A DNA stretch of 64,000 nucleotides from a virus, in the IMG/VR virus record IMGVR_UViG_3300045256_000282, positions 1-64,000 of that record; one strand, 5' to 3'. The notes under the pieces were generated by a model. That model did no database searches. It had not been told where the DNA came from and saw only the letters and a list, made by a program, of their open reading frames with translations. A program made the position numbers and the translations under genes. Shown here piece by piece: positions 13,661-33,114 of this stretch. Position 1 is the first letter of the stretch. The number at the start of each line of letters is the position of its first letter.

Positions 13661-14281
13661 ATGTTAAAAATCTTAATTCAGATACTCCAAATGTTTTTTG
13701 GTGGAAATCAAGAACAGGAAGTCCAAGCTGCTCAGCCGCAGCCAAAACAGCCTACTCCCCCACAACCTGATCCTTCTGAAAAAAAAGAAAAGCCTCAAGG
13801 TATAGATTGGACTGATCCAAATGCGGAAATTTCTCGGTACTTTACTGTAAAAAACGCTATCTGGTTACCGCAATGGAACAGACTGGCAAATCCAGAGCAG
13901 GATAGCCTAACACAAGACTCTAAAGATGCTCTCGTAAAACTTTTTACAGAAGTTATGGACCCAGTTAGAGAACTGATTGGTAAGCCTATCAAGGTTCACG
14001 TAGCTTTTAGATCCCCAGAATACAACGTATTGATCGGCGGTGCTCGTATGTCAATTCATATGGCTAGAAAGTACGAGGACGGAAGTCTTGTGGCCGCATG
14101 TGATTGGTCTGCAGACATGGGTAAGGGGTCTCCTGGGGCAAACTGCGACGAGCTTAAGAGTATCTTAACGCCTAAGCTTGAAGAGCTGGGTGTTCGTATG
14201 GAGAATAATGGCCAGGGAGCTACTTGGATTCATCTAGATAACAGGAAGCCTGGGCCTGGCGGACGATTCTTTAAGCCTTAG
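13661..14281 (+). CDS. M15-family peptidase, probable endolysin or virion lysin
   Basis: 206 aa. N-terminus is short and hydrophobic (MLKILIQILQMFF), then a Pro/Gln/Lys linker (about 20-50). The catalytic part resembles peptidase M15A (D-Ala-D-Ala or L-Ala-D-Glu carboxypeptidases): EISRYFTVKNAIWLPQW, AFRSPEYN, GARMSIHMARK with zinc-ligand His, AACDWSAD with zinc-ligand Asp, and the final WIHLDNR. The start at 13661 follows the stop of the previous gene; an upstream ATG at 13589 lies inside that gene in another frame and lacks a ribosome site. It ends convergently on the protease gene, stop codons overlapping. Confidence 0.8.
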   Translation: MLKILIQILQMFFGGNQEQEVQAAQPQPKQPTPPQPDPSEKKEKPQGIDWTDPNAEISRYFTVKNAIWLPQWNRLANPEQDSLTQDSKDALVKLFTEVMDPVRELIGKPIKVHVAFRSPEYNVLIGGARMSIHMARKYEDGSLVAACDWSADMGKGSPGANCDELKSILTPKLEELGVRMENNGQGATWIHLDNRKPGPGGRFFKP

Positions 14282-16230
14282 CTGCATTTCCAGCGCTTAA
14301 GTGCCGCGCCTTTAGGGGTTAATTTTCCGTCTTTTGAAGTTGGACCTTTAACCCCAGACATGCGTGCGCAGAAAGACTTGCGTCTCCCAGCAGCCTCAGA
14401 TCCTGGCTTAGCTTTTCCTGTAACCGGACGCTTAAGATGAGAACCATTTTCCCTGTTATACTTCTCGCGATACTTATCGTTCAAGCCGCCCTCTTTTGAG
14501 TGCTTCTTAGGGTTATAGTCTTCAAACGGCTTATCTTTCTTCTCAACTTCTTCAGACTTTTTGGCAGGCTTGCAGCTACCCTTAGAATAGTCTGCCTTAC
14601 CGGGGACTTTCTCGTAGCCTTCCCAACAAGGACCCTTGGCTTTTTTCATCTTAGAGTCTTGTGCAAGCTCTTCCTTGCTTATCTTTTCAGGCAGATTCTT
14701 ACCTTTTGTTGCACTGTCCCATTCCTTGACAGCTTTTTCTCCACCTAGGGCTTTTTTGCCTGCTGGGGTATGAGCCCAACGACGTTGTGCTTCTGACCTA
14801 TAAGGTTTTTGAAGCTCTTCTTTTTCAGATCCTTCATGGGTGGGTTCACACTCAGAAGCTGTTAAAGCTTTAAGAGCCTCTTCAGCCTTCTTAGTTTTCT
14901 TCCAGGCCATCATCTTTGCCAATGCAACTGTTTCGGACTTAGTAAGGTCTGGCCTTTTGTGTTGTATAAACTTAACAAGCTCTTCTGCTTTAGGCCAGGT
15001 AGAAAAAGCTTCTTCGATAGACTTCTTCATCTTCCTAACAAGATCTTCCCTGGTAAGAGCTGCCGTACCAGTAAGAGCGCCGGGTGCTGCGCCTAGGTTC
15101 TTTTTGACGCTTTTCATCTTTAGGTTTTCCTTGTCGATGAAACTGCCAATTTCTTTAGGGTGCTTAGCAAACAGGGTCTCAGTTTTGCCGGATTCCTTGT
15201 GTACTAGGTGGTATGCCTTGTGGTCTGAAGGAGTTTTGGGATGCTTAGTCTCTGTAAAATTCCAACCAGCATGATGCCAGATCTCTTTTGCCTTCTTAAG
15301 AGAAGGCTTAACTTCTTGAGAACTTTTGAGTTTTCCTCCGGTTGCAGCTCCAGATGGTATATTGTGCATCTGCTTAGGTGCAACCGTACCCTGTGAAACT
15401 GCTTGGGTATATGCTTTTGCATGCCCAAGAGCTTCCTTGGCGCTTCCAAACGAACCCTTGACGCCTTTTAGTCCAGCCAAGCTTCCTGCGTGTTTGACAT
15501 GAAACTGGCCGCCTTGCTGATGAACCGTAACGATGCCATGCTCAGGGTGAGTAAAAGAAACAACGTGACCTGCGCCCTTGGTGTTGCTTATACTTGGTTT
15601 CCAGGTTTTCTCCATCATTTCGGGTTCGTATTTTTCTAAAACCTTAATTTCTTGAGATTCTTCTGATTTGAACATACCGCTTAGGGGGTTTGAGTTTTTT
15701 TGAACCGGCTCGGAAGGCTGCTGTAGCATTTCCTCGGCTACGGCTGCCTTATTGCATGGGGTAACTGTGACGGTTACCTTTCTAGCGATAGACTTTACGA
15801 TGTCGTTCCCTTGTTTTTCTAGCTTGGCACCTTCTACAGAAAAATTGATAGTATTCTTCTTAGAGGTACCTTCTGATCTAGACATAGAATCATACTTAAG
15901 CATTGCTGCAATTTCTTGAGCTTGCTGGTGGCCAACGCCGTCAAAAAGCTCGCCAACTATGTAAACGAATGGGGCCTTGCCTTTGTTCCAAAAGTGGAGC
16001 TGGTTCTGATCTTCGCAATCTTCTTCAGAGAAAATCTTCTTTGCTTTCAATATCTTGCCTACAATATGGGAGGCGTTTTCATTCTTATGCTCCCAATTAA
16101 GGACTCCCTCACCGCGCTCTAAAGACGAGATGTCCATTCCCTTTACTATGATGCGCTCTCCAGAGCTGTCCATGTGCTCTGAGGCTGCTACTCCGTGAAT
16201 GAAGGTTCCGCGCTGAGATGGTTTGTTCAT
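14278..16230 (-). CDS. Prohead maturation protease with long C-terminal extension
   Basis: The N-terminal 170 residues resemble prohead proteases of the herpesvirus-assemblin/S77-like fold: LNWEHKN (candidate His48), VGKILKAKKI, VYIVGELFDG and INFSVEGAKLE (candidate nucleophile Ser131). The middle is variable and Lys-rich, with two HxxG/KEALGHAKA-type modules. The last 90 residues (GGLNDKYREKYNREN, then RRKSFCARMSG and PKGAALKRWKC) form the small Cys/Lys-rich domain seen at the ends of many phage proteins (DUF6321 type). Unusually it is on the minus strand inside the plus-strand head operon, with its own upstream elements. Inference: it cleaves scaffold and head proteins. Confidence 0.78.
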   Translation of the reverse strand: MNKPSQRGTFIHGVAASEHMDSSGERIIVKGMDISSLERGEGVLNWEHKNENASHIVGKILKAKKIFSEEDCEDQNQLHFWNKGKAPFVYIVGELFDGVGHQQAQEIAAMLKYDSMSRSEGTSKKNTINFSVEGAKLEKQGNDIVKSIARKVTVTVTPCNKAAVAEEMLQQPSEPVQKNSNPLSGMFKSEESQEIKVLEKYEPEMMEKTWKPSISNTKGAGHVVSFTHPEHGIVTVHQQGGQFHVKHAGSLAGLKGVKGSFGSAKEALGHAKAYTQAVSQGTVAPKQMHNIPSGAATGGKLKSSQEVKPSLKKAKEIWHHAGWNFTETKHPKTPSDHKAYHLVHKESGKTETLFAKHPKEIGSFIDKENLKMKSVKKNLGAAPGALTGTAALTREDLVRKMKKSIEEAFSTWPKAEELVKFIQHKRPDLTKSETVALAKMMAWKKTKKAEEALKALTASECEPTHEGSEKEELQKPYRSEAQRRWAHTPAGKKALGGEKAVKEWDSATKGKNLPEKISKEELAQDSKMKKAKGPCWEGYEKVPGKADYSKGSCKPAKKSEEVEKKDKPFEDYNPKKHSKEGGLNDKYREKYNRENGSHLKRPVTGKAKPGSEAAGRRKSFCARMSGVKGPTSKDGKLTPKGAALKRWKCS

Positions 16231-16909: not shown

Positions 16910-16934
16910 TTAAATGCCTAAGGAGGGTTTACCT

Positions 16935-17732
16935 ATGAAACTGACTCAAGCTGATTTTGAAAAATTAGTGTCCGATGTTGAAAAAGAGTTCGATCTCTTT
17001 TTGGCTAAGACTGAGTCTGAGGCTAAACCCGAAGTAACTTTGGCTAAATCTGAAGACAAGTCTGAAGGCGAAAAGAAGGATGAAAAATCCGAAGAAAAGC
17101 ACGAAGACAAAAAAGAAGACGAAGCTAAGGAAGCATCGGCAGAAGCCGACGACAAGAAAGAAGATAAGAAAGAAGACAAGAAAGAAGACGAAGAACATCA
17201 CGATTACGACGAAAACGATATGGCTGAAATGCACAAGATGTACGGTGCCATGTCTAAAGCTGAGTTGAATCTTCATAAGGGCGCTATGGAAAAGTGCTGG
17301 ATGGAGAAATGTGGAGATATGTCTGTGATGAAATCTGAAGAGAAAGCTGTTGAACAGCCTCTCGCAAAGTCTGAAGATGCTGAATCTATCAAGAAATCTG
17401 AGCTAGAAGCTAAGGTTAAAGAACTTGATGGAGTTAAGGAAGAGAACGAAAAACTCAAGAAAAACCTTGAGGAAGTCGTTTCGGCCATGAATGGCTATTT
17501 CACTAAGAAGGGTCCTACGCGTAAGGCTGTAACCTCAATCGAGTACGTTAAAAAGTCCGAGATTGAAGATAAAAAGCCTGAAGCTAAAGATCTGAAAAAG
17601 TCTGAAATCACAGCAATCTTGTCAAGAAAAGCAGCGGACCCTACGTTGTCCAAAGCTGATCGTGAAGCAATCAACAAATACTACCTCAAGAACGCAGGGA
17701 TTGAAGTAGTTAAGCACCTGTTAACGCAGTAA
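16935..17732 (+). CDS. Scaffolding protein candidate, highly charged coiled coil
   Basis: 265 aa. Residues 20-100 are almost only Lys, Glu, Asp and Ser; residues about 150-190 form a heptad helix (ELEAKVKELDGVKEENEKLKKNLEEVV). KSE occurs eight times, often after a hydrophobic-x (LAKSE, VMKSE, IKKSE, VKKSE, LKKSE). Position directly before the capsid gene and composition are those of a scaffold. The ATG at 16935 is chosen over the one at 16914 because AAGGAGG (16919-16925) sits 9 nt upstream of it and would be within the coding region otherwise. It would line the prohead and be removed by the protease. Confidence 0.82.
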   Translation: MKLTQADFEKLVSDVEKEFDLFLAKTESEAKPEVTLAKSEDKSEGEKKDEKSEEKHEDKKEDEAKEASAEADDKKEDKKEDKKEDEEHHDYDENDMAEMHKMYGAMSKAELNLHKGAMEKCWMEKCGDMSVMKSEEKAVEQPLAKSEDAESIKKSELEAKVKELDGVKEENEKLKKNLEEVVSAMNGYFTKKGPTRKAVTSIEYVKKSEIEDKKPEAKDLKKSEITAILSRKAADPTLSKADREAINKYYLKNAGIEVVKHLLTQ

Positions 17733-17744
17733 GGAGCAAATACA

Positions 17745-19127
17745 ATGGAACAACTGCAAGCACTCATTAAGGCGCTGGAAGCGGGTAGCTACAATGCTGC
17801 TCCTGGATCTCTGGTTCAGGGCTCAGCATTGCAGCACGAAGATCTCTCTCCAGTCATGCAAAACGTCACTTTTGGTGACGAGCACATCAAGTTGCAGAAG
17901 GCGTTGAAAATCGAAGACGCTAAATCTCAACTTGTTCAATTTAACCGTCAGCTTAGCTACGGTACCTTCGGCGGAAGCGCCCAGTATGAAGGTGGTATTG
18001 GTGAAGAAGACACCAGTGACTACATTCGTGCGGTGGTACCAATGGCCTACTACAGCACGACTCGTCGTGTCACAGTGGCTGCTAACATGATCGGTGCTTT
18101 CGACGGCGTAAAAGCTGAAGATCGCGCATCGGAAGATGCTGCTAAGAAAATCGTTGGCGATATCGAGTTGGACATCCTTAAAGGTATGTCTGATTTCTCT
18201 AACGCTGGTGTTTTCGACGGTAACCCAGGCGCAATTGCTGCCCTCCCGAACATGTTCGGTTTGGATCAGCAAGTTCGCCAATCTGACGCTCAAGCTTCTA
18301 CTCAGGATCTCATGTTCGCTGAGTACGGCTCTGACCAATCGGTCGTTCTTTCGGCTGACGGATCGCTCACGCAATCCATCATCGAAGATTCGGCTGTCCG
18401 TTCAGCAATGAACATGGGTCATGCCGATAAGTTCATGCTTGATCCGATCTCGTTGTCCGCATACAACAAGATCTCTCACGCTAAGGAACGCATCGTTCTC
18501 GCTGGCTCTCCTCAAGAAGCTAGCGGCGCTGCTCTCCGCCAACAGTGGACCAGTTCGGGCGCTGTCAGTCTTGAAGCTTCGCGCTTCATCTCTGGCAAAA
18601 CGCGTCCTGCTAAGGCCCGCGCTGGAAGCCCAGCAGCTCCTGCTGCTCCTTCTGACGCTGCAGTCTTGGCTGCTGGATCGCTGCTCGAAGCTGGTAGCTA
18701 CGTTTATTACGTAACTGCTGCTAACGAGCGTGGTGAATCACTTCGTTCTCCTTCGATTTCTAGCGCTGTAGCTTCGGCTGGCGATGCTGTTGATCTCACG
18801 ATCACGGCTGTTGCTAACGCCAAATACTACAACGTGTATCGTTCGGACGTTGGTGGTTCGGCTGCCGATGCTAAGTTCATCGGTCGCGTGAAGCAAGCCC
18901 TTGGAAACCCTGTGTTCCGTGACCTCGGCAATCGTAGCCCTGGCTCGGTCACTGGCTACCTCCTCCAGATGGACACTTGGTCACTTCATCAGTTGGCTCC
19001 TTACAGCAAGCTCAAACTTGCTGTTAGCGATCTCAGCTTGCCTGAAGCGCACTTCCGTTTCCTCTGCTTGGCTGGTCTCCAACCTCGCAAAAACGTCTTG
19101 ATCGACAATATTGACGGTCAGCTTTAA
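17745..19127 (+). CDS. Major capsid protein with inserted Ig/FN3-like domain
   Basis: 460 aa, ideal AAGGAG site. Assigned by position (after scaffold, before terminator), by its strongly optimised codon use compared with neighbours, and by the HK97-fold pattern: N-arm, ALKIEDAKSQLVQFNRQLSYG, MAYYSTTRRVTVAANM, LDILKGMSDF, MLDPISLSAYNKI. Residues about 305-385 form a separate beta domain (AGSYVYYVTAANERGES, then YYNVYRSD) like Ig/FN3 insertions that decorate capsids. The C-terminus (LPEAHFRFLCLAGLQPRK) returns to the core. A strong terminator follows. Confidence 0.88.
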   Translation: MEQLQALIKALEAGSYNAAPGSLVQGSALQHEDLSPVMQNVTFGDEHIKLQKALKIEDAKSQLVQFNRQLSYGTFGGSAQYEGGIGEEDTSDYIRAVVPMAYYSTTRRVTVAANMIGAFDGVKAEDRASEDAAKKIVGDIELDILKGMSDFSNAGVFDGNPGAIAALPNMFGLDQQVRQSDAQASTQDLMFAEYGSDQSVVLSADGSLTQSIIEDSAVRSAMNMGHADKFMLDPISLSAYNKISHAKERIVLAGSPQEASGAALRQQWTSSGAVSLEASRFISGKTRPAKARAGSPAAPAAPSDAAVLAAGSLLEAGSYVYYVTAANERGESLRSPSISSAVASAGDAVDLTITAVANAKYYNVYRSDVGGSAADAKFIGRVKQALGNPVFRDLGNRSPGSVTGYLLQMDTWSLHQLAPYSKLKLAVSDLSLPEAHFRFLCLAGLQPRKNVLIDNIDGQL

Positions 19128-19243: not shown

Positions 19244-20770
19244 ATGATGAAGGCTAAGGATCAAACTACAGAACGGATCGTTGCAGAAAGGTTTCCCAAA
19301 GGGGATACTGCTGAGAAGATCGCCTTAGATTTGAACCTAACAATATCCGCTATAAATTATCATATTAATAAGCTAAAACTCAGAAAGCCTATAGATAGGT
19401 CCAGACCATGCACAATATGTGGGATTGTCTTTGTACCTAAATATAGCGATGGTGTAAAGAAGAACAAGTATAAAACATGCTCTGTAGAATGTTATAGTGC
19501 ATTCCTGAGTAAGAGCCGTACTAAGTACTCCGAAGATGATATTCAAAAAGTTAAGGACCTAAAGAGTAGGGGTGTTGAAAACTTTTTGATTTCTAAACAA
19601 ACTGGGGTAGACATAAATAAGGTCAAAGAGATAGTAAGGAAAAACAACCTATTCTTAGACACTGCCGTTAAGACTAAAAATTCTCAAAAAGGTAAGGCAT
19701 TAAAAAACCCAGACCATATGTCCCACATGAGAAGCGGCCATATGGAACTTTCTGAGGAACAGTTTTACAAAAAAATTAAACTCATTGAGAAGGACATAGA
19801 ATTAGGTTTAGGCACAGCTTCTGGTTTGGCTGTAAAGTACGGATTGGTACCGGCCTCCGTAGTAGCAGTACTTAATAGGCAGGGAAAGAAGAGCCTTTTA
19901 AACGTCAAGGAGTCAACCGGACAAGTTGGTGTTAAAGAGTTTTTAGAAAGTATTGGCTTAAAAGTTTCCTACAACGACAGGAAAGCAATAAAACCCAAGG
20001 AGATTGACATCTACGTTGAGAGCAAGAAGATCGGTATCGAGTACTGCGGTATATACTGGCACTCAGACCTGTTCATAGACGATAATACCCACCTGGACAA
20101 GATGAAGATGGCCAATGCTGCGGGAATTCGTCTGATAACGATATTTGAGGATGAGTGGTTGAATAGGCAGGATCAGGTTAAGAACTTCCTTAAGGCTACA
20201 CTTGGTGTTAGCGATAGGAAGCTACACGGTCGAAAATGCACCGTTAAGATCATACCTGCCCTTGTCGGTAAGACCTTCATGGAAAACTATCATATACAAG
20301 GTGCTGCCATTAGGAGCATGGTCTATCTAGGGCTTTGGCATGAGGATGAACTGGTAGGTGTTATGAGTCTAGGTAGGCATCATAGGCGCTCAGCTAACGG
20401 TGAAGTGGTGTTGGATAGGTTATGTTTTAAGGATGGGGTTACCGTGTCAGGAGGATCCTCAAAGCTTCTGTGTGTAGCAATAGGGTGGGCTAAAAAACAA
20501 GGTTTTACGAAGATGGTAAGTTGGTCCGACAACAGGTGGTCCCAGGGTGACGTATACCGGGCCTGTGGCTTTAAGCTTGAAGAGGAGCTTAGGAGGGACT
20601 ATAGCTACGTTAAGCAAGCCGGGCGTGTCTCCAAGCAATCCTGCACCAAGGCAGCCTTAGCTAGGCTGGGTGCGGTAGGGGCTACTGAGAAGGAGATGGC
20701 CGAAAGCCTTGGGTATGCTAGGATTTGGGATTGCGGCAAGAAGCGATGGGTACTGGAAATCGAGCAATAA
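19244..20770 (+). CDS. Free-standing EDxHD (Vsr-like) homing endonuclease
   Basis: 508 aa. Order: helix-turn-helix (residues about 5-45), zinc finger CTIC...CSVEC (about 55-82), a second DNA-binding helical region, then a very-short-patch-repair-like nuclease core: EIDIYVESKKIGIEYCGIYWHSD, HLDKMKMANAAGIRLITIFEDEW (about 254-310). This is the EDxHD family exemplified by I-Bth0305I. The C-terminal 180 residues (RSMVYLGLWHEDELVGVMSLGR, YRACGFKLEEE) look like a GNAT-type fold often fused to these enzymes. It sits alone between the capsid terminator and a head gene, typical of a mobile insertion next to a conserved gene. Its codon use and AGG/AGA-rich arginines differ from the capsid gene. Confidence 0.87.
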   Translation: MMKAKDQTTERIVAERFPKGDTAEKIALDLNLTISAINYHINKLKLRKPIDRSRPCTICGIVFVPKYSDGVKKNKYKTCSVECYSAFLSKSRTKYSEDDIQKVKDLKSRGVENFLISKQTGVDINKVKEIVRKNNLFLDTAVKTKNSQKGKALKNPDHMSHMRSGHMELSEEQFYKKIKLIEKDIELGLGTASGLAVKYGLVPASVVAVLNRQGKKSLLNVKESTGQVGVKEFLESIGLKVSYNDRKAIKPKEIDIYVESKKIGIEYCGIYWHSDLFIDDNTHLDKMKMANAAGIRLITIFEDEWLNRQDQVKNFLKATLGVSDRKLHGRKCTVKIIPALVGKTFMENYHIQGAAIRSMVYLGLWHEDELVGVMSLGRHHRRSANGEVVLDRLCFKDGVTVSGGSSKLLCVAIGWAKKQGFTKMVSWSDNRWSQGDVYRACGFKLEEELRRDYSYVKQAGRVSKQSCTKAALARLGAVGATEKEMAESLGYARIWDCGKKRWVLEIEQ

Positions 20771-22404: not shown

Positions 22405-22565
22405 TGGCTAAAAGACGACGTGCCTCAAAACGTTCCGTAAGATGCACCCTATGCACAACCCACAGGTGGTTTGGTAACTCTAAGGGTCGTTTTAAAGCAA
22501 AAGATGAACAGCTTAAAAAGCTAAGCAAAAAAGAGATCAAAGATGTCAGACTACACAAAGAGTAA
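22404..22565 (+). CDS. Small basic zinc-ribbon-like phage protein (53 aa)
   Basis: MAKRRRASKRSVRC then CTLCTTHRWFGNSKGRF and a Lys-rich helix. A Cys-x-x-Cys-x-x-His arrangement suggests metal binding. CGGAGG site, TGATG overlap with the previous gene and a 23-nt overlap with the next. Small basic proteins with a C-x2-C-x2-HRW motif are common next to head-tail genes of large phages; the role is unknown. Confidence 0.75.
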   Translation: MAKRRRASKRSVRCTLCTTHRWFGNSKGRFKAKDEQLKKLSKKEIKDVRLHKE

Positions 22566-23379
22566 AAGTTTTCCAACGACGACGTACCCGATACATGCCA
22601 ACGGCACCTCAGGCCTACTTAAGCGGGTTGAGCCCCTACTCACCCCAGAGAAGTTAAAAAGTCGCCATTTAAAAGGCGTACTCGAGTTGGCAAAAAGGTT
22701 TGGAATTACCTACACGAACGATGAGCTTAAGGATAGGATCAACCTAGCAACAAATCAGACCGAGATTGAGCTTGGCGTACCGATCTTTGCGGAGCAATTT
22801 AAGGAAAAGCATCCTTTTGACGTAAACTTGTACCGGGCATTTATTCATATCAGGACAGAACAAGGTCCGATCGTTTCTTTAGAAGACTTCTCCATCGTTT
22901 CCTCTGATCAACAAACAATTTTCAACGTGCCGATCCAGTGGGTTGAGACTGCTCAATTCCATCAGCGACAGATCAACGTAATTCCGCTACTCTCAAACTT
23001 CGGCGGCACTACGGTGAACACCCCAGTAGCTTCTGGCGGTATCGCATATCTTAGCATCTTACTTAACCAGTTTGGCTTTATTCCAAGTTACTGGCAGGTT
23101 ACCTATACCGCTGGAGTTTGTAAAGATCCAGGATGTGTTCCTGTTGTAGTAAATGAGCTTATCGGGACGATAGCCGCCATGGAAATGCTTAGCAGCATCG
23201 CCCCAAACAACCTACACACCTCCGTGAGCCTTTCTCAAGACGGTATCGGGCAAAGCTCAAGCAATCCTGGGCCTCAGTTATTTCAGATGAGGATGCAAGA
23301 ACTTGAAGCAAAGAAGAAAACTCTGATGGGACAAATTAAGAGGGTTTTCAGCGCCAAGTACTTTCTTTCGAACATCTAA
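22543..23379 (+). CDS. Candidate head-tail adaptor/neck protein
   Basis: 278 aa. The N-terminal third is helical (LKGVLELAKRFGITYTNDELKDRINLATNQTEIELGVPI), similar in feel to head-completion adaptors that bind under the portal, followed by a beta domain (YRAFIHIRTEQGPIVSLEDFSIV, NVPIQWVETAQFHQRQINVIPL). Not assigned to a named family. Its place after the portal/capsid block and before virion-associated enzymes supports a neck role. Confidence 0.72.
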   Translation: MSDYTKSKSFPTTTYPIHANGTSGLLKRVEPLLTPEKLKSRHLKGVLELAKRFGITYTNDELKDRINLATNQTEIELGVPIFAEQFKEKHPFDVNLYRAFIHIRTEQGPIVSLEDFSIVSSDQQTIFNVPIQWVETAQFHQRQINVIPLLSNFGGTTVNTPVASGGIAYLSILLNQFGFIPSYWQVTYTAGVCKDPGCVPVVVNELIGTIAAMEMLSSIAPNNLHTSVSLSQDGIGQSSSNPGPQLFQMRMQELEAKKKTLMGQIKRVFSAKYFLSNI

Positions 23380-23387
23380 GAGGAATC

Positions 23388-24446
23388 ATGAGAAACCTAG
23401 TTTCAAGACCACACATCATTCTTTCGGTAGAAAATCCGGGTTACCCCGCATCTTCTCCCGTATCTCACGATGTGGCCGTTAAGAGTCTAGAAAAATTAGG
23501 TGGTGGCAAGGTTCATACGATCAAAGGGCATTACGGGAAGCCTGAGCAGAGTATCTTGATAAGCGATCCTAGTGACGAGCAGGCGCAGTTTGCAAGGCAC
23601 CTTGCCCACTCTACCGGGCAGGAATCCCACATAGAGAGTGACGGACATAGTCACAAGATGTATTTTAATAACGGACCTAAGGCTGGCTCTATCGTACATG
23701 GTCGCGGAACTAAGTGGCACTCAAAGGCACCAAAAGACTACTTCACCACCCTTCCGTCTGGGGAAACTTTTACTCATAACTTTGAGATGGAGAAGGCTGA
23801 AAAAACACCGGGCTCAGGTGTAAAGATTAATCCTCAGCATGGAGCACAGATTGCTCAGGCATATGAAAGCATGAAACATGACCCTTCTCATCCCGATGTT
23901 AAGGCGGCGTATGGGGCACTTATAAGCGAGACTAAGGATCAGTTCAAAAAGATCTTGGGTTCTGGATTTAAGATTTCTAAGATAAAACCAGGCCAGGCAA
24001 ACCCATACAAAACTTCTAAAGATATGCATCACGATATAGAACACAACAAGCATCTTTGGTATTTTCCAACAGAGGCTGGGTTTGGTTCTAGTGATCAATC
24101 AAGTTCTGATCATCCCATGCTTGCGCCTACGGAGTTTACACACGGAGATCACAAGCTTCTTGCTAATGACATGTTCAGGATAGTACATGACATAAATGGG
24201 CACCATCTGGGTGGAAAAAGTGGATTTGGTCCAAAGGGAGAGCATGAGGCATACCTTCATCACAAGACTATGTACTCACCTATGGCAGGGAAGGCTTTGG
24301 CTACCGAAACGATGGGACAAAATAATACAGTTAATTTTGGACGTCATGGTGAAAATAATCGTAAGAATCCTTCTAAAACGATATATGCTGATCAAAAAGC
24401 TGGACTTTTGCCTGATAACATCATAAACGGAGATTGGCACAAATGA
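23388..24446 (+). CDS. Polyvalent-type virion protein with HDxxGH motif
   Basis: 352 aa. The first 90 residues (GGKVHTIKGHYG, EQAQFARHLAHSTGQESHI, MYFNNG) resemble small domains found in polyvalent phage proteins. The C-terminal half holds FRIVHDINGHHLGG, GEHEAYLHHKTMYSP and ATETMGQN, a His/Glu-rich set conserved among unrelated phages and plausible as a metal site; no enzyme activity is known to me. It ends ATGA into the next gene and so heads a four-gene coupled cassette (23388-28529). Confidence 0.68.
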   Translation: MRNLVSRPHIILSVENPGYPASSPVSHDVAVKSLEKLGGGKVHTIKGHYGKPEQSILISDPSDEQAQFARHLAHSTGQESHIESDGHSHKMYFNNGPKAGSIVHGRGTKWHSKAPKDYFTTLPSGETFTHNFEMEKAEKTPGSGVKINPQHGAQIAQAYESMKHDPSHPDVKAAYGALISETKDQFKKILGSGFKISKIKPGQANPYKTSKDMHHDIEHNKHLWYFPTEAGFGSSDQSSSDHPMLAPTEFTHGDHKLLANDMFRIVHDINGHHLGGKSGFGPKGEHEAYLHHKTMYSPMAGKALATETMGQNNTVNFGRHGENNRKNPSKTIYADQKAGLLPDNIINGDWHK

Positions 24447-26878
24447 AACACCGTCATTACCGTAGGATGATGTCCGATTCCTTAAAAGAGATACAGGATC
24501 TTGATAAGGCAGATGTAAAAATCTCAGAAAAAGATTTTGTTGATGAGCATAAGAAGCTTTTAGATGTACTTGAACATCCTACTAAGAAAAAACTTAAAGA
24601 AGAGGCCAAAGATCAGGGTAAGGAACTTAAAGAAGAACTTGCTAAAGCCCCAATCGCATACCACGGCAGCACCGTTCCTTTTGAGGAACATGCGAAGCCT
24701 AAGAAGGACCCTAAGAGTCAACTTAACTATGGACCCGGCATATACTACGCTACGGACCCCGAAGAAGCTTCTAGTTACGCAGAGCCTCAGATTGCTAGGA
24801 TCAATGATCACTCTAGCGCACTTACTGAGGTTCAAAAAGAGCCCGGATATAGAGAATACCGCGACTCTGTTGCATCTAAGATGGGGTTGTCTAGCTCCGT
24901 AGATACGAAACATAAAAACTGGGATAAATTTGCAGATCATATGCTTTCTTACGACAAGCAGAAGATCAACGAAAAGCTTAAGCTTGCTCCAAACGTAAGG
25001 CGATCGGATGTTCAAGTTAATAAACCTTTTGATCCCTACAACAAGAAACACGCGCTAGCAGTCTATCAGGCACTAGGCATAGAACCAGACCACTTCAGGC
25101 TTGGTCAGGAGCATAAGGCCGGTTCCAACCTTTATGGACAGATCGCAAACCACGATAAGTTTGACAATCTAAAGTGGGGAGAAAAAACTCATAAAGTAAA
25201 TCAGGCAATAAAAAGAGCTGGGTTTGACGGTATCCACGACAAGAAGCTCGGGCACATTATCGCTTTTGACCCTAAGCAGATCAAGCCAGCATATGGTGCT
25301 GCTAAAAAACCTAAGAAGCTTGCCGCATCTGAGCTTGAGAAGTCTAAAAACGTTCGCGAACAGCGAAAGAAGGTGTTCGGTACTGACGCGAATGCTCCTA
25401 GAACGTCTGAGAAGCGCATGAAGATGATGCAGATGATTAGACAATACGCTCAAAAGAAGTACGGCCTTCCTCTTGTAACAGCTTCTGGTAAGAGAGATGA
25501 GTCCGGTAAGCTTAAGGAGCAAAAAGGAATTGAGGGTCAGCCTTACGACGTATTTACTCCTAAAGGCGTGGCTCAAGAAAAGAAGCGCCTGGCTCAGATT
25601 AAAGAAAAAGGAACCAAGCGAGTAGATCCAAAACCTGACTGGCGTTCTGGTCAGCTTGAGACTCAGCCGTCTCCAGATGCTGCCGTACACGAGCTTTCAC
25701 ATCTTGACCTTGCTCCAGAGGGTATGACGGCTCCAAAATTTCAAACTGAGATGGATCGTCTTTGGGGAGATTCTCAAAGCAAATACGGTCATATGCAGCA
25801 AAAGAAGACTCGCGGTGAAATTCAGCCGATGTCTATCGAAAATCCAATACGAAGAGAAATGGGCCTACCCGCTAATAAGCAAACAAAACCAGTTACTGCT
25901 AACCAGTCAGTTCTTGATGACCCTACTGGAAAAGAAAAACGTTTTGTTGAAGGTAAAGATGCTAACGGCAAAAAAGCTTTTTACGATCGTCAATCTAGGC
26001 TTCAAAATCAAGATACTAAAGACAGACGACAGCAGATTCAAGAAGGAAGCTTAAAATTTCATCCTGAAAAGGGATGGCAACAAGCTTCGGACACCAATGC
26101 CCTTATTAATTTGAGGGGTAGAGGTTTGAAGGAAGAGGCTGCAAACAGACTTAAGGCAAGGCTTGGATTTCAGTCCCAACCAAAGAAGTTGGCGGCAAGT
26201 GAAGATTTAAAAAAAGAACAGTGGGAAAGAAAAAGAACAGGATCTTCTCTTAACCCTTTGCACGGCGTAATATCGCCGGAAGGAAAGTTTTATCCTATGA
26301 ATGCAGATGAGATGCATTCTAACAAGATAATTCAAGCAAGTCTCCCTCCTTACGCCAAGGTTAGCTATACGCCTGGCGAGCTTGAAAACGAAGTAAACAA
26401 AAAGATGGGCGAAGGATGGATTTCTGTTGGAACCGCTGGGGAACCTAGCTTCATCGGACACTCTTCTGTATTAAGCAACCCAAGACATCCCGCCACCGCC
26501 GCACTTAGGGGTCTTATTCGTGAAGCTCAAAATGATCCAAAAAACACCGCTGGTTTTTGGACTGGTCATGTTGAAGTTTCTCATAGTGACAAGAAGCCCA
26601 TCAAGGGTGCAGAAACTCTTGAGCACGCCCCTCATGTGGGTTATGTAAGTGCTGATCACTTTGTCAGGCACGGCACGTTTAAGCCACACAAAGATTTGGG
26701 ACGATCCGAAATTGAAAAAAGCTGGTCGGCAAAGCTTGCAGCGAAATACAAGGCCCAAAGACCTCAAACTCCTCAAGAAATTAAAGAATCAAAAGAAAAA
26801 CACAAGAAGGCAATGGAAGCTGCACTGGCTGCTATAGACAAGATCAAAAAGCCAACTAAGCCTGGAGGTCAGAAATGA
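24443..26878 (+). CDS. Polyvalent protein: ADP-ribosyltransferase-like plus HExxH metallopeptidase-like
   Basis: 811 aa. After a Lys-rich helical N-terminus, residues about 70-275 look like the ADP-ribosyltransferase fold of polyvalent proteins: AYHGSTVPF (His74), NYGPGIYYATDPEEASSYA (Tyr101/102), and the closing GFDGIHD...HIIAFDPKQIK. The middle holds AAVHELSHLDLAPEG, an HExxH zinc motif at residues 416-420 as in MPTase-PolyVal domains. A third globular region (about 625-760) is not recognised. ATG at 24443 is chosen over TTG 24434 because of the ATGA overlap. Known for such proteins: packaged and injected to modify host targets. Inference: same here. Confidence 0.78.
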   Translation: MKHRHYRRMMSDSLKEIQDLDKADVKISEKDFVDEHKKLLDVLEHPTKKKLKEEAKDQGKELKEELAKAPIAYHGSTVPFEEHAKPKKDPKSQLNYGPGIYYATDPEEASSYAEPQIARINDHSSALTEVQKEPGYREYRDSVASKMGLSSSVDTKHKNWDKFADHMLSYDKQKINEKLKLAPNVRRSDVQVNKPFDPYNKKHALAVYQALGIEPDHFRLGQEHKAGSNLYGQIANHDKFDNLKWGEKTHKVNQAIKRAGFDGIHDKKLGHIIAFDPKQIKPAYGAAKKPKKLAASELEKSKNVREQRKKVFGTDANAPRTSEKRMKMMQMIRQYAQKKYGLPLVTASGKRDESGKLKEQKGIEGQPYDVFTPKGVAQEKKRLAQIKEKGTKRVDPKPDWRSGQLETQPSPDAAVHELSHLDLAPEGMTAPKFQTEMDRLWGDSQSKYGHMQQKKTRGEIQPMSIENPIRREMGLPANKQTKPVTANQSVLDDPTGKEKRFVEGKDANGKKAFYDRQSRLQNQDTKDRRQQIQEGSLKFHPEKGWQQASDTNALINLRGRGLKEEAANRLKARLGFQSQPKKLAASEDLKKEQWERKRTGSSLNPLHGVISPEGKFYPMNADEMHSNKIIQASLPPYAKVSYTPGELENEVNKKMGEGWISVGTAGEPSFIGHSSVLSNPRHPATAALRGLIREAQNDPKNTAGFWTGHVEVSHSDKKPIKGAETLEHAPHVGYVSADHFVRHGTFKPHKDLGRSEIEKSWSAKLAAKYKAQRPQTPQEIKESKEKHKKAMEAALAAIDKIKKPTKPGGQK

Positions 26879-27426
26879 TCTGGGGAAGACTAAAAAAGAA
26901 CATTGAAGATAAGTTGATACCGGCAGCTCACAAGGAAAAGCTTTTTAAACAAAGAGAAAAATTCTCCAAGTCTGCAAAAGATGAGTCTTTAAAGCTTGAA
27001 CACTATTCTCATGAGCAAAACTTAAAAGAGATCGACCCCAAGAAGATGGGCTCTGGGGCAGACGCTCAAACAAAAAGAGGTGGCCCTATGGAGCACCCTC
27101 ATAGCTTTTTTTATAGAAGCGGCCATCCCCTACCCGAAGAAGATTCTCATATTCATCGTCAGGCTAGTAGCAAGTATCATGTTGAGTTGCCTTCAGATGT
27201 AAAACTTTACGACCTATCTACAGATCCTCATAGACTCAGAGAAAAACTAATACAAGAAACAAAGCATAGACAGGTAAACCCTGGGCACCCAACACCAGAC
27301 GAGCTTCATGAAAGACTCAAAAGCCACGGCTATCATGGGTTTTACTATTCTAAACATCCCTCAATGTCCAGCGTAGTTGCTCTATATGACAAGGTTCCAG
27401 TAAAATCTGAGGAGAAGAAAAAATGA
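26875..27426 (+). CDS. Second ADP-ribosyltransferase-like polyvalent protein
   Basis: 183 aa. LEHYSHEQNLKEIDPKKMGSG, then HSFFYRSG, and a C-terminal GYHGFYYS...SVVALYDKVPV match the outline of ART-PolyVal domains (HYS start, aromatic centre, final beta strand). It is smaller than and not obviously derived from the upstream ART. It overlaps both neighbours by ATGA, so it is made together with them. Enzymatic activity is unproven. Confidence 0.65.
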   Translation: MIWGRLKKNIEDKLIPAAHKEKLFKQREKFSKSAKDESLKLEHYSHEQNLKEIDPKKMGSGADAQTKRGGPMEHPHSFFYRSGHPLPEEDSHIHRQASSKYHVELPSDVKLYDLSTDPHRLREKLIQETKHRQVNPGHPTPDELHERLKSHGYHGFYYSKHPSMSSVVALYDKVPVKSEEKKK

Positions 27427-28529
27427 TGGATTCTCTAAAGAAATCTCATGAAAAGAACATGGCTCACAATGGCCTAGCGTTGTTGTACCCGGTCTCTGTT
27501 ATGGGAAGACACATGAGATCTAACGGGATACCACACCATGTTACGGTGAAGTTTTTTGATAAGCCAGAGATTACCGCAGATGATGCTCATGACTACGCTC
27601 AAAACGAAAATTTAAAAACTCCAAACCCTTACGACATTATGGTTACTCCTAAGGTTTTTAAAAATAGATTTGGCGAAGACGTACATGTTCTTGCTCTTGA
27701 AGGGTCGGGAATTGATCACGTAAAACAAGCAAACGCAAATGGCTCCCATCTTGGCCAGCCCGTAAATTACAAGTTTACCCCTCACATAAGTGTGGACAAA
27801 GAAACTCACGATAGGGTTGCCTCTATGGGAAGGCCAGTAAAAGCCAGTGAGCTGGGTATTAAGTTTGGCCCACCAGAACTTAGACATGGTCCCAGAGTGG
27901 TTGCCACCTATAATAAGATCGAAAAGAATATGTTTGGTATTGAGATTGAGGATGTTGAACTTAAAAAGTCCTTAAAACATACGGCTGCCGCGACCGCCGC
28001 GCTGATGGGTCTTATGGGTAATCCAAACATGGCTGGCTCTATTTCTGAAAAACCGCCTGTGGTTGCCCAACCTCAGGCAAACAAGGGCAGGATGCTTAGC
28101 GCTATAGCTGCTGTAGAATCTAGCTCAGGTAAAGATACACATCACGAGCCTTTGCATGGTATGCATCAAGGTGAAAGCGCTTATGGAAAGTACGGACTTA
28201 CGCCGATTACGGTTAGGGAAACCGTAGGTCGACACCCGGATCTTAAAAGAGCACACAGAGGAGTTTTATCTTTAAAAGGCAAGGATTTTCAATCCTACAT
28301 GCAAAAAAATCCAAAACTAGAGGAAGAGGTGGCCTCACGCCATTACGACAGATTAAACAAGCTCTTCCACGGAGACCCTGGAAAAATGGGTTATGCCTGG
28401 TTAAATGGGATAACTGGGGGTCTTAGAGCCGCCAAACAAGGGTTTGATTTTGACAACCATTGGCATGTTAAAAAGATCAAAAATGCGTATCAAACTATTG
28501 AAAACACTAAGAATTCTCAAAAAAAGTAA
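27423..28529 (+). CDS. 2H phosphoesterase fused to a lytic transglycosylase-like domain
   Basis: 368 aa. N-terminal part carries two HxT/S motifs: HHVTVKFF (His39-x-Thr41) and FTPHISVD (His121-x-Ser123), 82 residues apart, the signature of 2H phosphoesterases (LigT, CPDase, anti-CBASS Acb1). Residues about 220-360 resemble a goose-lysozyme/SLT fold: MLSAIAAVESSSG (candidate Glu232), YGKYGLTPITVRE, then a region rich in aromatics. A hydrophobic Ala/Met stretch (186-205) links the two. A combined RNA- or cyclic-nucleotide-cleaving and wall-cutting virion protein would be unusual. Fourth gene of the coupled cassette. Confidence 0.75.
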   Translation: MMDSLKKSHEKNMAHNGLALLYPVSVMGRHMRSNGIPHHVTVKFFDKPEITADDAHDYAQNENLKTPNPYDIMVTPKVFKNRFGEDVHVLALEGSGIDHVKQANANGSHLGQPVNYKFTPHISVDKETHDRVASMGRPVKASELGIKFGPPELRHGPRVVATYNKIEKNMFGIEIEDVELKKSLKHTAAATAALMGLMGNPNMAGSISEKPPVVAQPQANKGRMLSAIAAVESSSGKDTHHEPLHGMHQGESAYGKYGLTPITVRETVGRHPDLKRAHRGVLSLKGKDFQSYMQKNPKLEEEVASRHYDRLNKLFHGDPGKMGYAWLNGITGGLRAAKQGFDFDNHWHVKKIKNAYQTIENTKNSQKK

Positions 28530-28550: not shown

Positions 28551-29105
28551 ATGGAACTAAAACCTAGTGAAATTGAAGCGATCGAAGAAATTGGTGAATT
28601 AGACGGAAGCCCGGTCAAGATGATCAGAACCATCGGTGGTTTTTGGATCGCCGTTGGTAAGCCTAAAGGCAAAAAAGACCAAGAGGCGCTTGGTGCAGGA
28701 AGTCATCCGGCCATCGTGAAGTACAACGTTGAAAAGCAATTTTCCGCTTTCCAGCCCACCTTAGCTAAAAGCGAGCTAACTGGGTCCTCTGAGAGCGTAA
28801 CTGGCTATACCGAGCTTCTACCTCAAGAGATGCGAAAAAACGGATATGAGATGTTCTCTCTTACAAAAAGTAATGAGATCGAATACGTCCTTACTAAGCA
28901 TGGCGCTCAAGTTCATGTATTTAAAGCCGAAGTGCAAACTGATAAGATCAAGTTTGACAAAGCTGCAAAACCACTCCCGAGCAACTTAAAAGGGTTTTCA
29001 AAAGCAGCTACGACCGTAGCCACCCACAAAGCAAAAGAGCTTGGTAAAGAATTTATCGAATATGACAACGTAAAGTTTCCTATCAAGAAGTTGTTGAAAG
29101 GTTAA
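28551..29105 (+). CDS. Hypothetical virion-region protein (184 aa)
   Basis: Not recognised. N-terminal small beta domain (SPVKMIRTIGGFWIAVGKPKG), then LAKSELTGSS, then a domain about 80-184 (GYEMFSLTKSNEIEYVLTKHGAQVHVFKAE). Clear TTGGAG site. Only 1 bp separates it from the next gene. Confidence 0.7.
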   Translation: MELKPSEIEAIEEIGELDGSPVKMIRTIGGFWIAVGKPKGKKDQEALGAGSHPAIVKYNVEKQFSAFQPTLAKSELTGSSESVTGYTELLPQEMRKNGYEMFSLTKSNEIEYVLTKHGAQVHVFKAEVQTDKIKFDKAAKPLPSNLKGFSKAATTVATHKAKELGKEFIEYDNVKFPIKKLLKG

Positions 29106-29106
29106 G

Positions 29107-29304
29107 ATGCCAGATACAGCAAGGAAGCTTAAATTGGCTTCAAAACTTAAAGAATCAAAGAATACTAAGCCCGCAGAAAAAATGTGCAAGGAAGATAAGA
29201 AGGCACTGGCTTGCTGGGTAGGAAAAAGACTGCTTGAAAGTCAGGAAAAGATAGAAAAAACTTTGAATGAGATGCGGTTGATTTGCGAGAGGGCAAAAAA
29301 GTAA
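29107..29304 (+). CDS. Small Lys-rich helical protein (65 aa)
   Basis: Basic and helical, with two cysteines (MCKEDKKALACW). Not recognised. Kept because it fits exactly between its neighbours: 1-nt gap before it and a TAATG overlap with the next gene. Confidence 0.6.
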   Translation: MPDTARKLKLASKLKESKNTKPAEKMCKEDKKALACWVGKRLLESQEKIEKTLNEMRLICERAKK

Positions 29305-30242
29305 TGTCAAAAAGAAAGCCCAAGGGAACACAACTAGATGCCATCAATAGGGGGAGTCAGCCTTTTCAGGTTACTTTTGATCTGTTGAAACAGGATCAGT
29401 TCGTAAACTCCTTAGGGGTTGACTTTATCCACTATAAGGCTATGCCCTCCCCTATAGGACTGAAGGATAGAGGAGATTATCGTCGAAGTGACGGTTTGGA
29501 CACCATAAGCTCAAACGGCATGCTTTACTTTAAAGCTGGGTGTTTTACGGCGACCATGGTTGATAATTCTAAGTCTCAAAAAGCCTCAGAAGGTGCCTTA
29601 CTAGATTACTCAACTTCTAGACTTATAATGCCTAGATTTTACAATACCCAAGAAGAGCAGTCAGACGGCAAAAGAATTTACATGGCCCCTGGCGATAGAG
29701 TCTACATCGCAGACCCGGCAGCCGACATCCTAGTTCCTAACTATCAACGAATGGACTATGAGCCGGACACAGACAACGTTCCCATGTTCCCTATAGCGCA
29801 GATAGAGTTTGTTGAAGATAGTCGCGGAATAATCTACCAAGAAGGTCGGGATTTTGAGATAACCTGCCAAGGAAACATCCGGTGGATACCTTCTGGGCAA
29901 AACCCAGGAATCGACCCTGACACTAAGAAGGGTCGAGTTTATTCGACCAGATACCTCTATAAAGCTTTTTGGTACGTAGTAGCCATTCCCAAAGAGGTGA
30001 GGGTTACGAATGTAACAAACGGGGACGAAAGAGTTCCAGAACGAATGGCCTATCATGCCGTAGTTCAAAGAGAATACATATACCTTAACGTTAACCGTGG
30101 CCAAAACAGCGATGGAAGCACTGGCGCGGGAGACGTAAAGACTCAAGATCAAAAGAGAATCGTAAAGAAACCTAAATCGGGTATCGACCCAGGAGGCCCT
30201 AGCATAAAGGTCAACATGGACGATATCGAGCAGGAATCTTGA
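29304..30242 (+). CDS. Virion structural protein, unknown role
   Basis: 312 aa. ATG at 29304 (TAATG overlap) preferred to the in-frame ATG at 29283. Residues about 30-110 (GVDFIHYKAMPSPIGLKDRGDYRR, NGMLYFKAGCFTATM, DYSTSRLIMPRFY) are a dense, conserved-looking beta domain; the last 50 residues are Gly/Lys rich and flexible. It resembles neck or baseplate-hub-associated proteins of large myophages by size and place, but no family name is secure. Confidence 0.7.
   Translation: MSKRKPKGTQLDAINRGSQPFQVTFDLLKQDQFVNSLGVDFIHYKAMPSPIGLKDRGDYRRSDGLDTISSNGMLYFKAGCFTATMVDNSKSQKASEGALLDYSTSRLIMPRFYNTQEEQSDGKRIYMAPGDRVYIADPAADILVPNYQRMDYEPDTDNVPMFPIAQIEFVEDSRGIIYQEGRDFEITCQGNIRWIPSGQNPGIDPDTKKGRVYSTRYLYKAFWYVVAIPKEVRVTNVTNGDERVPERMAYHAVVQREYIYLNVNRGQNSDGSTGAGDVKTQDQKRIVKKPKSGIDPGGPSIKVNMDDIEQES
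30235..30240 (+). promoter_or_regulatory. AATCTT late-promoter candidate
   Basis: GGAATCTTGATATAGTACG overlaps the end of the previous gene; the gene at 30269 starts 28 nt downstream behind GAAAGGG. Confidence 0.4.
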
Positions 30243-30733: not shown

Positions 30734-31642
30734 ATGAAGATCACAGCTTCTGCAGAACAGTTCCTTTCTAAGGCGCTGGGCCAAGATGGCCTAGATGCAC
30801 TGCAGAAGTCTGAGCTTTTTAAGCTAAAGGCCAATAAGGTCGTTCCTATAGACGAGATCAAGACTGCTATGCAGATCGTACCTCGGACTGTAATCACACT
30901 ACTCCACAAAGAACTTGGCGCGATGAAGATCGGTGAAGGCAAGGACGTAGTTCTTCCAGTTCAACCAGAAGCCATCTTACATGTAACCAAATACGACAAC
31001 GACGTTTATAGCGGGGATATCCATAGACCTGGAAACGTTATGGCTAAGTTTCAAGATCGATCACTCCCTGGCGTTGGTTTGATCATCATGTCTACTTTTG
31101 AGCTTTACGATGTATCAGACCTAGCATCGGCAGCTCCAAGCTCCGTGCCTAGCTTAGAAGAGGCTAACGTTCAAAAGATCATTGATGAAAGAATGGGCCT
31201 ACGAGATCTTGTAAGACAAGTAGTTGACCAAAGAATTACGGAAAGAGAAGCGATTGACAGCATCATAAGGATGAGGTTAACTCAAGCTATGGCCGAAGCT
31301 ACTCAAAAAAAAACAGAAAAGCCTGAAGAGGCACCTATGGAATCTAAAAAACCTACGAGTAAGCTTAAAGAGTTTATTGAACGAAGAGCTAGGAAAGCTC
31401 CTAAAGAATTTCAGATCAGCATGGCTAAGAACGAAACCGTTGTATGTGAAGATTGTAAAAAAGAGATCTTCACCAAAGGCGCGTTCTCTGGCTGCATCTG
31501 CTATGGTGACGATCGAAACAACAAGATCTTCATTACTAAGAATGAGAACGGATTTACTATGCGGTTTCCTCGTAGTTGGGATGTGGAAAACGTCCAGATG
31601 CTTTTGGAAACTTTGCGAGATAAGAACAGGGGTTCCAAATGA
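30734..31642 (+). CDS. Virion-region protein with C-terminal zinc ribbon
   Basis: 302 aa. Helical N-terminus with LQKSELFKLK, a middle domain (VTKYDNDVYSGDIHRPGNVMAKF), a charged helical linker, then CEDCKKEIFTKGAFSGCICYG near residue 236, a four-cysteine ribbon. Not assigned to a family. Coupled by ATGA to the palm-domain protein that follows. Confidence 0.7.
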   Translation: MKITASAEQFLSKALGQDGLDALQKSELFKLKANKVVPIDEIKTAMQIVPRTVITLLHKELGAMKIGEGKDVVLPVQPEAILHVTKYDNDVYSGDIHRPGNVMAKFQDRSLPGVGLIIMSTFELYDVSDLASAAPSSVPSLEEANVQKIIDERMGLRDLVRQVVDQRITEREAIDSIIRMRLTQAMAEATQKKTEKPEEAPMESKKPTSKLKEFIERRARKAPKEFQISMAKNETVVCEDCKKEIFTKGAFSGCICYGDDRNNKIFITKNENGFTMRFPRSWDVENVQMLLETLRDKNRGSK

Positions 31643-33114
31643 ACAGATTATTCGTAGCTTTTGATGGCGATAATATGGGCTCACAAGTTGGTCAGGCTGT
31701 CCTTATGGACGATGCTCAACAACTTCACGAGATCTCTCGTCGAATTGATAGCGCTGGACGAGCGATACAGGATTGGGTGGAATCTAACGGAGGCCAGATG
31801 GTCTCGGTTGGTGGGGATGAAGGAACTTTTGTTATCGATCCTTCTATGGAAGAACATCTTGAGGAGTTGAGAGGAGTTTACCAACAGATCAGTGGTGGTA
31901 CCGTAACGTTTGGCGTAGGATACTCTCTAAGTCAAGCCGGTAAGGCTTTGATGGCTGGAAAACTTATGGGAAAAGATATTCTGGTTAGGTATGACGACCA
32001 GGTAGACCACATCCTTTCTGATGCGCATGATCAGGTTCAAACTGGTGGTGGAAGTCCCGAAGCTCAGAAACAAGATGAGCATTATCTTAGCCACGTTGTG
32101 CTAGGCGATGCTGGAAACGGCGAAGAGGATGTTAGCCAAGAATCTGCTGATGAATACGACATGGCTCCAACCTCTAATTCTCCAGATGACCAAGAAATTA
32201 CTCCTGAAGGCGCTGCTGCCGCACAAGAGATGGTAGATGACGCAGCAAATTCAGAAGGCTGCAATTGTCCTGCTTGCCAAGAGCGCCATGCTATGGAGGC
32301 TCAGGGTCAGGGGCCGGAAGAAGAAGCAACTGAGGGTTGCGATTGTCCTGCTTGCCAAGAGCGTCATGCTATGGAGAGTGGTGCTGAAGAGCCTATGCCA
32401 GAGATGGCTACTCAGAATGAAGAAGATCTTCCAGAACAAGACTCTATGCAGATGATTCCAGATGCTCAAGCTGAGGGTTCGGACCTTCCTCCTATGCAGA
32501 TGCCAGAATCTCAAGAAGATCCTCAAAGCGCTATGGGAGAAATGGGCGAAGAAGATGCTATCGAGATTCCAGAGAACGAGTCTTTAGACGAGCAAAAAGA
32601 TCCAGAAGAGATGGTTGCTGCCGCAGTAGGGCCTAATGAAGATCCTGAGCAAGAGGGCGCTGTTCCTGAAGAAAACATGTCAGAAGACGGCTTTCCAGGC
32701 GCAATTCCTGGTGAAGGTGAAGAACCCGTAAATCAAGAAGATCTAGAAGAGATGCAAGATCCTTCAAACGAACAGATGCCTCCCCAACAAGACATGGGAG
32801 CCATGGGTGAATCCCAGGAACAACCTGGGGACCTAGACCTATTGTCCGAACTTTTATCAGATGCAGGATCTACTGATGAGCTTAAACAAAGAATTGCAGC
32901 TATACTTGAAAAGTTTAAAGCGAACAGGGATTCAATCATCTCGATGAAAGATCAGAACCCCGAGATGTACCAATCGATCATACTCATGCTTAAGCAGATG
33001 ATCGACATGGCGAGACATCTAGCCCCATCATCGCCAGAGGAAGATATGCCTCAAGATGAGCAGTCTGTTCCAGAGGAAGCTTCTCAGGAGGAAGCACCTC
33101 TCCCAAAACAGTAG
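31639..33114 (+). CDS. GGDEF/Cas10-like palm-domain protein with long acidic tail
   Basis: 491 aa in the zero frame. Residues 1-125 form a compact palm: LFVAFDGDNMG (Asp9, Asp11), a long helix, GGQMVSVGGDEGTFVI (GGDE 58-61), VTFGVGYSLSQAGKAL, then AGKLMGKDILVRYD. The D-x-D strand followed by a GGDE hairpin and a Lys-containing GKD strand is the layout of GGDEF and minimal Cas10-like (mCpol) nucleotidyl cyclases. The rest is acidic, with a 78-bp duplication encoding CNCPACQERHAME/CDCPACQERHAME (32254-32376). The gene ends at a -1 frameshift site. A catalytic role is inferred only. Confidence 0.75.
   Translation: MNRLFVAFDGDNMGSQVGQAVLMDDAQQLHEISRRIDSAGRAIQDWVESNGGQMVSVGGDEGTFVIDPSMEEHLEELRGVYQQISGGTVTFGVGYSLSQAGKALMAGKLMGKDILVRYDDQVDHILSDAHDQVQTGGGSPEAQKQDEHYLSHVVLGDAGNGEEDVSQESADEYDMAPTSNSPDDQEITPEGAAAAQEMVDDAANSEGCNCPACQERHAMEAQGQGPEEEATEGCDCPACQERHAMESGAEEPMPEMATQNEEDLPEQDSMQMIPDAQAEGSDLPPMQMPESQEDPQSAMGEMGEEDAIEIPENESLDEQKDPEEMVAAAVGPNEDPEQEGAVPEENMSEDGFPGAIPGEGEEPVNQEDLEEMQDPSNEQMPPQQDMGAMGESQEQPGDLDLLSELLSDAGSTDELKQRIAAILEKFKANRDSIISMKDQNPEMYQSIILMLKQMIDMARHLAPSSPEEDMPQDEQSVPEEASQEEAPLPKQ
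32254..32376 (+). repeat. Tandem repeat encoding a CxCPACQERHAME metal-knuckle-like motif
   Basis: Two copies of about 45 bp, nearly identical and in frame with a 78-bp period, give EGCNCPACQERHAME and EGCDCPACQERHAME. Cys-x-Cys-x-x-Cys plus His could bind zinc. Confidence 0.8.

Follow-up and report, generated by a model that had tools for sequence, protein, structure and literature searches.

Does a pair of short histidine motifs in a late phage gene mark a genuine 2H phosphoesterase, and what would such an enzyme do when joined to a domain that degrades the cell wall? The question is raised by one gene in the first 64,000 nucleotides of IMG/VR virus record IMGVR_UViG_3300045256_000282, a stretch referred to below as the window. 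The first-pass annotation proposed that this gene encodes a 2H domain, of the family of the anti-CBASS nuclease Acb1, fused to a lytic-transglycosylase (SLT) domain, and that a virion protein of this kind would be new. The gene and its parts are as follows.

27423-28529 (+): 2H-SLT fusion gene, 368 aa; open reading frame with full-length homologues in the related contigs L005, L016, L014 and L019
27468-27923 (+): 2H phosphoesterase-fold domain, residues 16-167; predicted from an AlphaFold model with Foldseek and VIA-align matches
27537-27545 (+): first 2H motif, H39-V-T41; His invariant and Ser/Thr at +2 across five homologues
27783-27791 (+): second 2H motif, H121-I-S123; His invariant and Ser/Thr at +2 across five homologues
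27960-27971 (+): LKKS motif, residues 180-183, in the low-confidence linker; candidate prohead-protease site from motif counts
27972-28016 (+): Ala/Gly-rich hydrophobic, signal- or SAR-like segment, residues 184-198, before the SLT domain; from hydrophobicity in seven proteins
28077-28520 (+): lytic-transglycosylase (SLT) fold domain, residues 219-366; from VIA-align, with Pfam SLT in relatives
28116-28118 (+): catalytic-type Glu232, invariant across seven SLT-module members

The frame starts with an ATG at 27423, shares its first 4 bp with the upstream gene and ends with a stop codon at 28529. A minus-strand frame within it (27612-27887) is unsupported and was taken as spurious. The protein has no Pfam match, and PHROGs offers one weak family of unknown function only; neither resource recognises the N-terminal half. 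Searches of the PDB by sequence and by profile gave nothing meaningful. The full-length model (7 sequences, pLDDT 72.8) consists of two confident domains connected by a disordered linker (residues 165-216).

Fold and conservation of the N-terminal domain

The protein contains 23 histidines and exactly two His-x-Ser/Thr motifs, HVT at 39-41 and HIS at 121-123, whose positions, coordinates and frame were all given correctly at first pass. Because 32% of 5000 shuffles of the protein contain a motif pair spaced 60-110 residues apart, the pair alone is weak evidence for a 2H enzyme. What lifts the assignment above chance is conservation of the motifs in homologues together with a predicted fold that matches 2H proteins.

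Firstly, the four homologues are only 19-41% identical to the window protein within the N-terminal domain, and just 15 columns of this domain are invariant among the five sequences, H39 and H121 being two of them. The motif pairs read HVT/HIS, HVT/HVT, HST/HIT, HMS/HVT and HMS/HVT, with Ser or Thr always at the +2 position. Loss of the histidines in homologues had been named beforehand as an observation that would speak against a 2H enzyme; we looked for it, and both histidines are retained throughout. Secondly, when the N-terminal domain is modelled alone (pLDDT 82.6, pTM 0.79), the motifs lie on predicted strands (39-45 and 121-123). Foldseek matches this model to 2H proteins in its first 25 ranks, led by the phosphodiesterase of Burkholderia phage BCSR5 (E 2.2e-4), and all 50 matches listed by VIA-align are 2H enzymes or 2H-like domains. 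The solved structures that score against residues 16-167 belong to the 2H superfamily only. The full-length model likewise aligns to 2H enzymes over residues ~12-168, with Z up to 9.0.

VIA-align scores of the N-terminal domain include those for plant CPDase (Z 9.7), rotavirus VP3 (9.4), YjcG (8.6), LigT (8.3), Usb1 (7.0-8.2) and Acb1 (7t26 and 7t27, 7.5-7.7), where differences below 1 are counted as ties. No single 2H protein is matched more than modestly, with TM about 0.45-0.5 and Z never above 9.7. Judged by the model, the domain is of 2H fold, and no 2H subfamily is singled out among these matches. Profile comparison by hhalign places it with none of T4 Acb1 (E 0.053), E. coli ThpR (0.016) and gp013 of phage ReqiPepy6 (0.056); controls scored 0.5-0.6, and each of the three alignments covers one motif only. 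Neither of the curated 2H models PF13563 and PF02834 matches the N-domain family, while PF13563 does match ReqiPepy6 gp013; the superfamily is very divergent.

Acb1 and LigT are both found among the 2H matches of the predicted fold, but a special tie to Acb1 is not established: plant CPDase and VP3 score higher, and sequence comparison does not recognise T4 Acb1. On the same grounds we consider it unlikely that the protein is Acb1 proper, a virion-borne anti-CBASS nuclease for 3',3'-cGAMP and cyclic trinucleotides, even though 7t26 and 7t27 are structural neighbours and the HxT/HxT chemistry is in common. An injected RNase that cuts or trims host RNA in the manner of Usb1 seems to us similarly improbable. 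Usb1 is among the structural matches, and such a role was proposed for MuF-2H proteins by Iyer et al. 2017 (PMC5512222), but Usb1 stands out no more than the others and scores below plant CPDase.

The SLT half, the relatives and the effector slot

The assignment of the C-terminal half to SLT domains is well borne out. Residues 219-366 match a Campylobacter lytic transglycosylase (Z 12.2 over 126 residues), Slt70 (11.9) and phiKZ gp144 (9.3); Pfam SLT is detected in two of seven aligned members (best E 9.5e-5), and Glu232 is invariant in all seven. Directly in front of the SLT domain, each of the seven proteins has one of its three most hydrophobic 15-mers. This segment is Ala/Gly-rich, in most of the proteins it is preceded by lysines, and its hydrophobicity (Kyte-Doolittle 0.6-1.2 over 19 residues) falls short of that of a typical transmembrane helix. 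By composition it resembles signal or signal-arrest-release segments.

No relatives were found by a scan of viral contigs with the window protein, by a scan of genome contigs with the N-domain alignment, or by a scan with the neighbouring product of 22543-23379. With a neighbouring virion protein as anchor, nine related phage contigs were recovered, one of which (L005) encodes a homologue that extends over the full length of the window protein with 42% identity. A search with the C-terminal-half alignment added three more 2H-SLT fusions (L014, L016 and L019), an apparent duplicate of the first of them (L015) and, in L020, an SLT protein that stands alone. The L011 protein has its SLT module joined to GNAT, not to 2H. 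In BFVD, A0A6J5KVM0 and A0A6M3SW15 aligned over about 400-500 columns and could span both domains. A match of the N-domain in L013 (35%, ~80 aa) was rejected: the phage is unrelated, the protein concerned is prohead-protease-like, and the alignment runs around a VDKEIHDEL stretch. The 2H-SLT fusion is genuine, and five phages of a single lineage encode it. The particular protein family, like the fusion, appears to be undescribed so far.

The surroundings of the gene comprise the following features.

14278-16230 (-): prohead protease-like protein with DUF6321 C-terminus (phrog_1028, E 6.6e-5; PF19846)
17745-19127 (+): major head protein (phrog_752, E 2.2e-40)
22543-23379 (+): conserved virion gene (phrog_772), upstream boundary of the slot, syntenic in Mx1, L014, L016 and L019
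23388-24446 (+): effector-slot gene, 352 aa (phrog_3170)
24434-26878 (+): effector-slot gene, 814 aa, with ART-PolyVal-like domain (PF18760, E 2.8e-5, below cut-off), HELSH zincin-like motif and two LAASE motifs
26875-27426 (+): upstream effector-slot gene, 183 aa, LEHYS-type domain, overlapping the fusion gene by 4 bp
28551-30242 (+): downstream boundary of the slot, a 184-aa gene (28551-29105) and a 319-aa virion structural gene (29283-30242)

At all five fusion loci the gene lies directly before a conserved gene of 167-184 aa and a ~310-aa virion protein. In L014, L016 and L019 the fusion is bordered on both sides by the same genes as in the window, and in L005 the two conserved downstream genes come after it. 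In Myxococcus phage Mx1 these flanks enclose the 1479-aa protein WNM70333, composed of GNAT, ART-PolyVal and NUDIX domains and a homologous SLT module. Because Mx1 and L011 carry other domains, and because the 2H profile found no match in seven related records (mostly fragments), a swappable effector slot fits these data. As in polyvalent proteins, biochemically disparate domains are here combined in one polypeptide encoded among virion genes, and from its gene context we regard the fusion protein as probably virion-packaged.

One could still imagine a lysis or tail enzyme whose 2H domain is merely a degenerate or binding module. An SLT domain with a signal-like segment would suit it, as would the stand-alone SLT relative; we hold it to be very unlikely, however, since both 2H catalytic motifs are retained despite low overall identity and the gene sits in a head/connector effector slot.

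Several other genes of the region deserve mention. The HELSH segment of the 814-aa slot protein is 54-72% identical among relatives and might belong to a self-processing metallopeptidase. Homologues of the LEHYS-type domain are parts of larger proteins in L003, L004, L005 and L008. A phage chaperonin (4671-6455, +; Cpn60/TCP1, Pfam E 7.9e-34) lies upstream of the portal gene. The major capsid gene is followed by a 508-aa protein (19244-20770, +) in which a Mom-like acyltransferase domain (PF25680) is accompanied by a weak restriction-endonuclease-like match, and a similar protein occupies the same place in L014 (1507-3210).

Proposed role of the fusion protein

A short motif hints at how the two halves might part. 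In the late proteins, L.KS occurs 17 times against 5.0 expected, and [LM][AT][AK][ST]E 9 times against 0.27 expected, the candidate cleavage motif LA[A/K][S/T]E having been picked after it was seen. This motif exceeds expectation by far in the protease-like, scaffold-like and polyvalent proteins (14278-16230 on the minus strand, 16914-17732, 24434-26878 and 28551-29105). The 2H-SLT linker of L016 contains KLAASE; in the window protein the linker reads LKKS and lacks the Glu. Such motifs may be recognition sites of the phage prohead protease. If so, the 2H and SLT enzymes would be separable before or on delivery. Since the SLT module travels with a signal-like segment and the linker has a protease-site-like motif, we suggest that the two halves work in different compartments.

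We think it reasonably probable that this gene of a large tailed phage encodes a late, virion-packaged effector which is injected and whose wall-cutting half acts in the periplasm and nucleotide-phosphodiesterase half in the cytoplasm. In the simplest scenario, the protein would be made late and packed in the phage head, where its linker may be cut by the prohead protease, and it would be injected into the host at infection. The hydrophobic segment would then put the SLT module into the membrane or lead it through, and peptidoglycan would be cut in the periplasm by means of Glu232. The 2H domain, a divergent phosphodiesterase presumed to use H39/T41 and H121/S123 in acid-base catalysis, would end in the cytoplasm and, early in infection, hydrolyse either an immune signal, cyclic or 2'-5' oligonucleotide in nature, or the ends of RNA.

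Healing of RNA ends is a serious rival, because this phage has an RNA ligase gene at another site (RNA_lig_T4_1, record positions 66912-67514), and two relatives encode RNA ligases as well. The 2H domain would then be a 2',3'-cyclic phosphodiesterase that prepares RNA ends, for example those of tRNAs cut by anticodon nucleases of the host, for the phage ligase, and CPDases, LigT and YjcG are among its best structural matches. Yet the ligase gene is ~39 kb away and outside the virion cluster, the 2H domain is seen here only in fusion with the SLT module, and L005 and L019, both shorter and incomplete fragments, gave no ligase match. We take RNA repair as possible, with some reserve. The effector context mildly favours the anti-signal role, as does the argument made for polyvalent 2H domains in PMC5512222.

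About three kilobases downstream, in the late virion cluster, lies a gene for a 491-aa protein (31639-33114, +) that begins with a minimal CRISPR polymerase (mCpol) domain; its match to PF18182 (E 1.2e-14) passes the curated threshold. The protein has intact DGDN and GGDE motifs and an acidic repetitive tail with CxCPxC motifs, and is by sequence a predicted nucleotide cyclase. Searches of the phage collection and PHROGs with this protein gave no match. The accessible text of two Panoptes papers treats mCpol as a bacterial defence enzyme. All relatives checked encode mCpol-like domains that contain DGDN-like and GGDE-like motifs, and because these relatives include phages devoid of the 2H gene, mCpol and 2H are not strictly linked. 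A second type of nucleotide cyclase is seen in the head cluster of Mx1, a GGDEF-domain protein (L024:3174-3902, equal to Mx1 17173-17904; Pfam E 1.3e-9).

The fullest version of the proposal strikes us as doubtful: a head-packaged protein would erase cyclic-oligonucleotide alarms pre-emptively during genome entry, and signalling nucleotides might be produced as well as degraded by the phage, whose lineage has its own mCpol-type cyclase in this late cluster. With a conserved mCpol gene nearby, the cluster is a good place to seek phage-side nucleotide signalling.

Comparison with known systems

To our knowledge, known anti-CBASS enzymes such as Acb1 are made only after infection begins. A virion-delivered phosphodiesterase, if it is one, would be active before expression of any phage gene. 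In kind, however, such a protein is not the novelty it was first taken for, because 2H domains in injected phage polyvalent proteins were predicted already in 2017. The accessible text of PMC5512222 describes 2H and lysozyme domains in polyvalent proteins encoded with late virion genes, and proposes their injection alongside DNA with RNase or anti-nucleotide-signal roles. There, 2H is joined to MuF or portal, and no 2H-SLT pair was found in that text. What is added here is a family that neither Pfam nor PHROGs detects, its recurrent fusion with SLT, the slot it occupies, and hypotheses of its processing and topology. If virion-delivered, the present protein would make the 2017 prediction testable on a single example. 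Since both resources overlook the family, phages with such 2H domains are under-counted. A phage late cluster also holds the gene for gp013 of Rhodococcus phage ReqiPepy6 (L021:10681-12273); the protein is unannotated and starts with a 2H domain (PF13563), and its gene adjoins terminase and structural genes.

Among the individual proteins, Acb1 (57B of T4 and its counterpart in Erwinia phage FBB1) shares with the window protein the 2H fold and two His-x-Thr/Ser motifs. Its structure and mechanism (PMC9117128) involve a C-terminal lid, base-stacking aromatics (Y12, W74, F107 and W147 in FBB1) and E141. Acb1 stands alone, whereas the window protein is a fusion and structurally no nearer to Acb1 than to other 2H families. 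The 2',5'-phosphodiesterase domain of rotavirus VP3 and plant CPDase are among the highest, tied scores of the N-domain (Z 9.4-9.7), but with 10-16% identity and unrelated hosts their substrates are not transferable. Slt70, Cj0843, phiKZ gp144 and T7 gp16 resemble residues 219-366 in fold and catalytic-type Glu and are devoid of 2H; the last of these is a head core protein that is ejected into the host. The closest counterpart in position is WNM70333 of Mx1, which occupies the same slot and has a homologous SLT module with a signal-like segment, but carries GNAT, ART and NUDIX domains in place of 2H.
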